From the NCBI RefSeq assembly GCF_022436675.1, contig NZ_JAKUJZ010000007.1:248001-312000 (forward strand): 64,000 nt of DNA, given 5' to 3'. This document shows, in pieces, positions 50,767 to 52,315 of this stretch (position 1 is the stretch's first letter; each line of letters opens with the position of its first letter). Position numbers and translations under genes: made by a program. This DNA comes from Rheinheimera hassiensis (GTDB lineage: Bacteria; Pseudomonadota; Gammaproteobacteria; Enterobacterales; Alteromonadaceae). The notes beneath the pieces are model-generated. The model searched no databases. It was not told where the DNA came from and saw only the letters and a program-made list of their open reading frames with translations.

Positions 50767-51465
50767 ATGCAATTATTACTACTGAGCAGTTCACGCGCCA
50801 ACAACAGTGCTTATCTGGCCCCTTATATGGCGTGGATCACGCAGCATTTACAAGGGGTGGACGAGTTGCTGTTTATCCCTTATGCCGGCATCAGTATTAA
50901 CTATGACGACTACCAGGCCACAGTGCAGCAAGCACTGGCTCCTTTGGGTATTACAGTGCGCAGTATTCATCAGTTTGACGATGCCCGCCAGGCTGTAGCA
51001 CAAGCGCAGGCCATTGCGGTAGGTGGCGGCAATACCTTTCACTTACTTTATCAGTTATATCAACAGGATATAGTGCAGCTCATTAAGAAACGCGTAACCG
51101 AAGGTCTGCCCTATATTGGCTGGAGTGCCGGCTCAAATATTGCCGGCGCCACTATCCGCACCACCAACGATATGCCGATTATCGAACCGGCTTCGTTTAA
51201 TGCACTAAACCTGCTGCCGCTGCAGTTAAACCCGCACTACACCGACTATAAACCGGAGGGTTTTCACGGCGAAACCCGCGATATGCGCTTAGCAGAGTTT
51301 ATGCAGTTGCATCCGGCCACACCCATTATTGCCCTGCCCGAAGGTACAGCACTAAAACGCAGTGGCAACAGCCTGACCTTGCTCGGTACAGGCGGTTATC
51401 TGTTTGTCGGCGGTAATAAAACGCCACTGGCAGCAGACAGCGATTTAGCTGATTTTTTGCTGTAA
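50767..51465 (+). CDS. pepE: Peptidase E, alpha-aspartyl dipeptidase
   Basis: Cytoplasmic S51 serine dipeptidase that hydrolyses dipeptides with N-terminal aspartate, 232 residues (E. coli 229). It starts MQLLLLSSSRANNSAYL, has FIPYAGIS and AIAVGGGNTFHLLY, with the nucleophile Ser in IGWSAGSNIAGATI, followed by NDMPIIEP and the His of LNPHYTDY. The ATG at 50767 has AAGGAG 6 bp upstream. A much longer frame from 50371 runs antisense through htpX and is not real. A structured repeat follows the gene. Confidence 0.95.
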   Translation: MQLLLLSSSRANNSAYLAPYMAWITQHLQGVDELLFIPYAGISINYDDYQATVQQALAPLGITVRSIHQFDDARQAVAQAQAIAVGGGNTFHLLYQLYQQDIVQLIKKRVTEGLPYIGWSAGSNIAGATIRTTNDMPIIEPASFNALNLLPLQLNPHYTDYKPEGFHGETRDMRLAEFMQLHPATPIIALPEGTALKRSGNSLTLLGTGGYLFVGGNKTPLAADSDLADFLL

Positions 51466-51506
51466 CAGAATTTTCTGCGGAGCTCAGAGTCTGTTTACGA
51501 AGGTTG

Positions 51507-51633
51507 GAATACACAGCCTGTATGAACGGGAGCAATCGGTTTGCTCTAAACCAACCGTTGAAGGCATGGATGCCTGAATCGAGCCTACAGGGATGTATTC
51601 ACGGCGTGTTGGTGTGGGCAAACCGGTTGCTCC
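51507..51633. repeat. MITE-like intergenic element with two interleaved inverted-repeat pairs
   Basis: Between pepE and bioD and running into the bioD 3' end. Pair 1: 51507-51522 with 51586-51600 (imperfect). Pair 2: 51529-51555 with 51608-51633, about 26 bp with a core GCAA(T/C)CGGTTTGC. A perfect palindrome AGGCAT-GG-ATGCCT (51562-51575) lies at the centre. No ORF inside, so a non-autonomous dispersed repeat is likely, although other copies cannot be checked here. Confidence 0.65.
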
Positions 51634-52315
51634 TGACACCTTGCATAAGCTGTGTCGCTAAATCCCGCGCCAACTGCTGATACTGTGTCGGGTCCGGCGC
51701 AAAAGGTACAACCCCCAAACAAGGTGCAGTGATACGCTGGCGCAGATCAGCAATATTTTGCTCCAGCAGCGCCATATCAGGGTCAATACAATTGGCTACC
51801 CAGCCCAACAGCTTGCAGCCGCTGCGCTCAATCTCGCGCACCGTTAGCATGGCGTGGTTTAAACAGCCCAGCTTCATGCCTACTATCAGGATCACCGGTA
51901 ACTGCTTATCGGCCACCCAATCCGCCAGATAACGCTGATTGCTTATCGGCAATAACCAACCGCCGGCACCTTCAATTAATAATTGCTGCACCGGTAATTG
52001 CTGCCACTGCGCCAGAGCAGCATCTAACTGCGCTTCGTCAATCGGCCGTTGCTCGTTGGCAGCCGCTAAATGCGGGGCTACCGGCGCCTGATAACAGATT
52101 GGATTGATCACTTTATAAGGTAACGCGATACCGGAATGTTGCTGCAACAGTAACGCGTCACCATTGCAGCCTTGGCCGTCAGCCCCCGCCGCTATTGGCT
52201 TTACGCCAACGGCTGCGCTGCCCAGCGCTTTAAAGCCTTGCAACAGCAAACTGCTGACATAGGTCTTGCCGGCGTCGGTATCGGTAGCAGTAATAAAGCA
52301 GCTGTTAATTAGCAT
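51599..52315 (-). CDS. bioD: Dethiobiotin synthetase with repeat-derived C-terminal tail
   Basis: ATP-dependent carboxylation of 7,8-diaminononanoate to dethiobiotin, penultimate step of biotin synthesis. 238 residues (E. coli 225). P-loop TATDTDAGKTYVSSLLL, cited as TDTDAGKTYVS; the substrate region IEGAGGWLLPIS is present. The normal family end corresponds to ARDLATQLM; the last 11 or so residues (RSNRFAHTNTP) are encoded by the inverted repeat at 51602-51633. Its start overlaps bioC by 11 bp. Last gene of bioBFCD. Confidence 0.94.
   Translation of the reverse strand: MLINSCFITATDTDAGKTYVSSLLLQGFKALGSAAVGVKPIAAGADGQGCNGDALLLQQHSGIALPYKVINPICYQAPVAPHLAAANEQRPIDEAQLDAALAQWQQLPVQQLLIEGAGGWLLPISNQRYLADWVADKQLPVILIVGMKLGCLNHAMLTVREIERSGCKLLGWVANCIDPDMALLEQNIADLRQRITAPCLGVVPFAPDPTQYQQLARDLATQLMQGVRSNRFAHTNTP

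Follow-up and report, generated by a model that had tools for sequence, protein, structure and literature searches.

How does a biosynthetic enzyme come by its last residues and its stop codon when both lie inside a repeat that is scattered over the genome? The question is raised by a gene at 51599-52315 (minus strand, read from 52315 to 51599) of the window, the whole stretch of 64,000 nucleotides analysed here, taken from a 78-contig, 4.70-Mb genome (G000) whose nearest named relative is R. pacifica DSM 17616 (G015). From the first-pass annotation and by its general likeness we take this gene to be bioD, encoding dethiobiotin synthetase. Its product has 238 residues, as first reported, and ends ...QGVRSNRFAHTNTP, followed by TGA; the gene end reads ...QLMQGVRSNRFAHTNTP-TGA. 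A convergent gene lies at 50767-51465 (plus strand) and is presumably peptidase E-like, and the 3' gap between the two genes is occupied by a repeat, here called A, at 51529-51633, which was recognised by BLAST, by a covariance model and by a repeat finder. A is placed on the plus strand, on which its hairpin tips read GGA (the GGA strand), and is one of about 54 copies. The first-pass annotation had named a dispersed palindromic repeat as the source of the BioD tail and stop, with a right arm covering the final 11 codons, RSNRFAHTNTP, before the TGA. Both points were borne out: the last 11 codons (51602-51634) lie within the right arm of A to within 2 nt, and the TGA (51599-51601, minus strand) is likewise inside A.

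The element consists of an outer stem enclosing two inner hairpins with GGA at both tips, a three-way arrangement. On the plus strand, the left arm of the outer stem (51529-51559) is supported by covarying helices 1-3 and by an inverted-repeat match; hairpin 1, AGGCATGGATGCCT, follows at 51562-51575 with its GGA tip at 51568-51570; hairpin 2, TACAGGGATGTA, has a covarying stem at 51586-51597 and its GGA tip at 51591-51593; and the right arm (51602-51633), read on the minus strand, gives nearly all of RSNRFAHTNTP. The central palindrome that had been described is hairpin 1, and the outer inverted-repeat pair was recovered by the repeat finder as a 16-nt match (51529-51544 / 51618-51633, 94% complementary); an earlier run with longer seeds gave no inverted repeat at all. 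A second, interleaved pair (51507-51521 / 51586-51599) did not hold up: it needs a gap, was missed by the repeat finder and is weak. Its left arm falls outside A, in that no matched piece other than the query copy extends left of query position 47 (window position 51526), and in the conserved structure its right segment, 51586-51597, pairs within itself. An extent of 51507-51633 therefore does contain the core element, but the repeat proper begins only at about 51529. The earlier observation was confirmed in the main, though partly: the effect was correctly named, while the extent and the second inverted repeat were off. The region 51480-51650 folded better than 200 of 200 dinucleotide shuffles, both as plus-strand DNA (z -4.4) and as bioD-strand RNA (z -3.1).

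A lack of other copies would contradict a dispersed origin; genome-wide BLASTN instead returned 52 pieces of A in its own genome, where long variants yield two pieces each. A covariance model built from 46 copies gave 54 matches there at E 0.01, two of which (C22:165035 and C22:165101) are one copy, and within the window it matched only the bioD copy at that threshold. DNA matches to A were found in all 31 genomes of the genus, the own genome included. In evenly sampled genomes searched under stricter filters, and with the own genome counted, the model matched 43 of 197 genomes and 15 of 80 genera across the order, and 27 of 143 genomes across the class at E 1e-6. The copies have a common core and variable outer arms, some carry extra hairpin modules, and subfamilies exist in which the outer arms are entirely different and still pair. 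Long variants (L016, L020, L025-L030 and others) contain the additional GGA hairpins CAAATTCGxxxGGAxCGAATTTG and AACTTCAxGGATGAAGTT, the former of which also occurs at the bioD end, within another repeat (B, below) in G009 and reversed in G030. One stretch of the own genome (L155, C33:353500-373000) holds six model matches in less than 16 kb, with a pair of copies back to back in opposite orientation at two places. The flanks of the copies at C11:424675 and C11:435729 (L157, L161) bear more short hairpins with TCC/GGA tips beside A and outside the model, and in G009 a locus (L188, C22:3130-3760) has one stretch duplicated on either side of an N, apparently an assembly fault.

The stems of A covary strongly. 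In an alignment (A1) of 46 of the 55 distinct cores, from which eight long-variant rows (L016, L020, L025-L030) and L087 were omitted, 94.5% of the cells at 24 pairs were paired, compared with 83.4% in shuffled and at most 40.8% in slid alignments, and two-sided change was seen at 17 of the 24 pairs. With 88 distinct copies, in an alignment fitted to the structure, the figures were 94.7%, 68.4% and at most 46.2%; two-sided change reached 22 of 24 pairs, a value also attained by 5 of 500 shuffles, and the other four measures were attained by none of the 500. GGA is invariant at both tips in all 46 aligned copies. Of 53 copies, 49 carry two or more GGA-tip hairpins on a single strand, as against 2 of 2000 random 86-mers from the window, and such hairpins in copies of A numbered 111 on the GGA strand and 8 on the other. 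Read on the GGA strand, the 88 copies gave 87 G-U and 43 A-C cells over all pairs, and 75 and 10 when the two outermost pairs and a misaligned pair (column 24) were excluded, a choice made after seeing the data; the 46-copy alignment gave 34 and 33, and 31 and 6 after the same exclusion. If the excess of G-U is real, the GGA strand would be the one that folds, a reading that rests on this post hoc exclusion.

Where these structures lie relative to genes was scored for 53 of the 54 model matches, C22:165035 being omitted as the same copy as C22:165101. Genes were called with a hexamer scorer of our own making, for which the window and one locus served as training data; one of its starts differs from the likely one, and its stops near bioD agree. 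Convergent gaps hold 18 of these copies, tandem gaps 33 and divergent gaps 2. Counted by gap, with one BLAST-only copy on C78 added and the BLAST-only piece C42:360029 left out, 19 of the 50 gaps holding A are convergent, 29 tandem and 2 divergent. The A-free gaps of these stretches that measure 100 nt or more (n = 277) comprise 20 convergent, 163 tandem and 94 divergent ones, and both the deficit of divergent gaps (2/50 vs 94/277, p 2.6e-6) and the convergent-to-divergent contrast (p 1.6e-10) are pronounced. This control exaggerates the contrast, since the convergent gaps that lack A are short. Against all gaps without A (n = 620; 93 convergent, 422 tandem, 105 divergent) the deficit remains (2/50 vs 105/620, p 0.014), as does the contrast of 19:2 with 93:105 (p 1.2e-4). 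Divergent gaps, which make up 17-34% of the controls, are avoided by A, and the effect is much weaker once short gaps are included. The finding that 51 of the 53 copies have a gene 3' end next to them is no more informative than the two copies in divergent gaps, because a tandem gap always has one facing gene end. Distances to the stop were taken at the 37 copies where the gene on the 3' side (on the GGA strand) points at A: 31 have this stop 15-50 nt away from the model core, and 34 have it 11-56 nt away.

The same position is where an intrinsic terminator would be expected. By our own, uncalibrated terminator scorer, a canonical terminator is present at 9 of 65 gene ends with A and at 101 of 281 without (p 3.7e-4); the difference is seen in convergent gaps (5/36 vs 35/66, p 1e-4) and is not significant in tandem gaps alone (4/29 vs 66/215, p 0.08). 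A resembles intrinsic terminators in being a stem-loop shortly 3' of the stop codon, within the 15-50 nt just given, and differs from them in its three-way, dispersed and covarying structure and in the rarity of a T-run. Inspection by eye found a T-run right after the stem in few copies (for example C33:95720 and C4:48689); most copies are accordingly not canonical terminators, and A was rejected as a Rho-independent terminator on the combination of hairpin and T-run. We infer that A replaces terminators in function. Alternatively, A could have landed in terminators and broken them.

Sites at which sister species lack the element were compared. Twenty-three copies were queried in four genomes, and among the matches listed 18 stretches, for 10 copies, seemed empty or altered; six (k0, k2, k5, k12, k13 and k16) were informative, and k6, k14, k18 and k20 aligned too poorly. 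In three sister species the site of the C51:86560 copy holds a simple hairpin with a T-run and no A; at C69:100716 A is likewise absent from three sisters, where a simple hairpin stands at its site. At C51:456963, the clearest empty site, two sisters lack the element together with about 37 flanking bases, and no target duplication is visible; several of the other empty sites differ beyond the element itself, and too much for a duplication to be judged. The label MITE-like given by the first-pass annotation fits the terminal inverted repeats and the many short copies, but it is a loose one, no target duplication having been seen.

Repeat A is not the only dispersed sequence to have reached the end of bioD. 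A second palindromic repeat, B, of about 92 bp (GGTTxxAAxACCCGAT...), was defined from the bioD 3' ends of loci L033-L053; it has 23 matches in the own genome, and BLAST at E 10 did not match it to A. The bioD stop lies inside A in 2 of 30 species and inside B in 11, so that 13 of the 30 species, all of one genus, have the stop of a biosynthetic gene inside one of two repeats. At three more loci A or B starts 8-22 nt after the stop, and 14 have neither; two further genomes (G022, G023) show a B-like bioD end by eye, gave no BLAST match and were not counted. In eight species the left end of B constitutes five codons and the TAA of bioD. Takeover of the bioD end by dispersed repeats is recurrent in the genus, and some of the 11 stops held by B may go back to one old insertion.

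The BioD tails of 30 of the 31 genus genomes were compared (G028 matched and provided no locus; the BioD sequences of G001 and G007 are identical), and the tail seen here was found only in the own genome and R. pacifica DSM 17616, both of which have A at this place, the element being identical in the two. In G026 the same element, at 96% identity, stands 8 nt downstream of a TAA stop, and the position of this TAA is occupied in the own genome (51641-51643, minus strand) and in R. pacifica DSM 17616 by CAA, a Gln codon. A fourth genome, G013, has a 94% copy 21 nt after a bioD TAG, flanked by pairing GGTGT/ACACC and then eight T. The first-pass annotation had pictured an insertion of A at the end of the gene that did away with the old stop and added the tail in one step. 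That the tail and stop are derived from the element stands, and presence or absence of A does differ between sister species; repeat B, given what its left end adds to bioD in eight species, may fairly be read as having inserted at the stop, and RU-1 apparently eliminated the stop of an Erwinia carotovora amidase (Delihas 2007, PMC2759123, excerpt). For A, insertion as the cause nevertheless appears unlikely to us: in G026 the element, with its left flank AAGGTGTCAGGAGC unchanged, follows a TAA that is intact, this stop lies at the usual distance (about 16 nt from the model core, inside the 11-56 nt range of 34 of 37 comparable copies), and the bioD copy alone, of 53, overlaps a predicted gene.

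Loss of the stop beside an element already in place is the likelier and simpler history, judged from these aligned gene ends, because G026 has the same element after a TAA where the own genome and R. pacifica DSM 17616 read CAA. According to this history, A would have come to stand 8 nt after the bioD stop; in the line of the own genome and R. pacifica DSM 17616 the stop would then have been lost by TAA -> CAA; and translation would since have read the CAA, two codons of flank and 11 codons in A, up to the TGA that A supplies. TAA -> CAA is the likelier polarity, and against it G021 and G018, with repeat B downstream, have CAAGGT near the place of the CAA. BioD of the own genome is 77% alike to that of G026, compared with 96% for A, a discrepancy suggesting that the block was transferred or recombined. 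In the tree of BioD, G000 and G015 do not group with G026 and G013, nor, at weak inner support, are G000 and G015 shown as sisters; given this tree and the CAAGGT, the bioD-end block may have moved by recombination. Loci L033 and L041 (G021 and G018), which are not sisters on the tree either, have near-identical bioD tails, suggesting exchange of gene ends between species.

What A does at gene ends is a separate matter. A role at 3' ends is rated the most likely function: A would spread into the space downstream of genes, take the position normally held by an intrinsic terminator, and probably serve as a 3'-end stem for transcripts arriving from either side. A strong rival, which we hold to be possible if somewhat doubtful, is a purely selfish repeat for which 3' ends are harmless landing places and whose fold is maintained by the mobilising machinery, with no gain to the host. 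The variation in presence and absence among close species fits such a repeat, as do the subfamilies with wholly different yet pairing outer arms and the preference for G-U over A-C on the GGA strand in the counts above, with and without the post hoc exclusion. A mover acting on single strands at the replication fork might, however, leave a strand bias, and this expectation was rejected, the 54 matches dividing 27 and 27 between the replication strands by local GC skew; the depletion of canonical terminators beside A, moreover, hints that a role was taken over.

The GGA tips suggest another possibility, that the hairpins are candidate CsrA/RsmA sites and the 50-odd copies scattered decoys or regulatory sites in 3' untranslated regions. 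GGA in a hairpin tip is a feature of such sites and is found at least twice in 49 of 53 copies, a density almost never reached by random 86-mers, with the triplet invariant at both tips; the own genome also has one CsrA match. Hairpin 2 contains UACAGGGAUGU, which fits UACARGGAUGU of what we take to be the high-affinity CsrA sequence, RUACARGGAUGU, with C here at the leading R. The CsrA motif is given as ANGGA in the portion of PMC9788540 consulted. Against this proposal, a sense bias of the GGA strand was looked for in tandem gaps and rejected (14 sense vs 19 antisense, p 0.49), and the Ysr224 RNA that matches the core of A comes from the strand opposite to the GGA strand. No report linking CsrA to dispersed repeats was found in the literature search, which is absence of evidence only. 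CsrA binding by A is speculative, and we regard this reading as quite improbable. A broader version, in which mobile GGA-hairpin repeats would form a replaceable gammaproteobacterial 3'-end module that displaces intrinsic terminators, adds predicted CsrA sites with each insertion and supplies new C-termini as a by-product, with bioD as a hotspot for two repeats, seems similarly far-fetched at present.

Taking the lines together, we consider it reasonably probable that A is a gene-end repeat of the YPAL/RU-2 class that stands in for terminators, that the tail of BioD arose by loss of the bioD stop beside it, and that takeover of the bioD end has recurred. A structured dispersed repeat found where terminators are expected, and in numbers that allow a test, opens a direct approach to the question of whether repeats of this kind are parasitic on gene ends or serve as functional 3'-end parts; the bioD ends of this genus let one ask how freely enzymes tolerate new tails. 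Donation of codons by such repeats is already published (PMC2759123, excerpt), and the kind of event is known because of that precedent. In the limited literature examined we found no mention of this branch of the family, of its gene-end habit or of repeated capture of the bioD end.

Judged by its core sequence, A is a relative of Yersinia YPAL/RU-2 and not itself a YPAL. Both have the core TCGAGCCTACA-N-GGATGTATTYACGGCGTnTT, preceded by a second GGA-containing hairpin, and both are dispersed and intergenic; the core of A is identical to published RU-2 at 29 of 32 positions (letters from the excerpt of PMC2759123), and none of 2000 shuffles was as good. They differ in length, about 168 bp in Yersinia and about 105 bp for A, and in the outer arms, short of which the local alignment stops. 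Filled and empty YPAL sites are known, and the targets span or adjoin dyad symmetry (review PMC2229807, excerpt); a possible counterpart at A sites would be the plain hairpins at two of the sites in sister species and the GGTGT/ACACC pairing that flanks the bioD copy in G013, and the target duplications of 3-26 bp of YPAL/RU-2 have no visible counterpart at the clearest empty site. Rfam Ysr224 (RF02770) contains the YPAL/RU-2 core as well. At the gathering threshold no Rfam family, Ysr224 included, matched anywhere in the window; in a scan of 10 loci the best Ysr224 score, 35.2 where the cut-off is 70 (E 1.3e-4), fell to a related copy in L025 and the window copy was left unmatched, so that A was rejected as Ysr224. 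The TwoAYGGAY motif (RF01731) has, as its name indicates, two hairpins with GGA-containing tips, a likeness to A. It is listed among the motifs in PMC2864571 (excerpt) and was rejected as the family of A on the lack of a match in the own genome, a weak negative, as 14 control genomes were silent too.

Closest in effect are the MITE-like repeats of the RU-1 and ERIC type in enterobacteria, in which a repeat at a 3' end likewise lengthens a protein and replaces its stop. The normal stop of the E. carotovora amidase mentioned above, ECA3499, was apparently eliminated by RU-1, and in ECA4072 16 nt of RU-2 provide four amino acids at the gene end (PMC2759123, excerpt). The repeat here is a different one, and here one gene end has been taken by two repeats in many species. 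We place A itself as a Rheinheimera member in a widespread class of structured, dispersed gammaproteobacterial repeats that have their core in common with Yersinia YPAL/RU-2.
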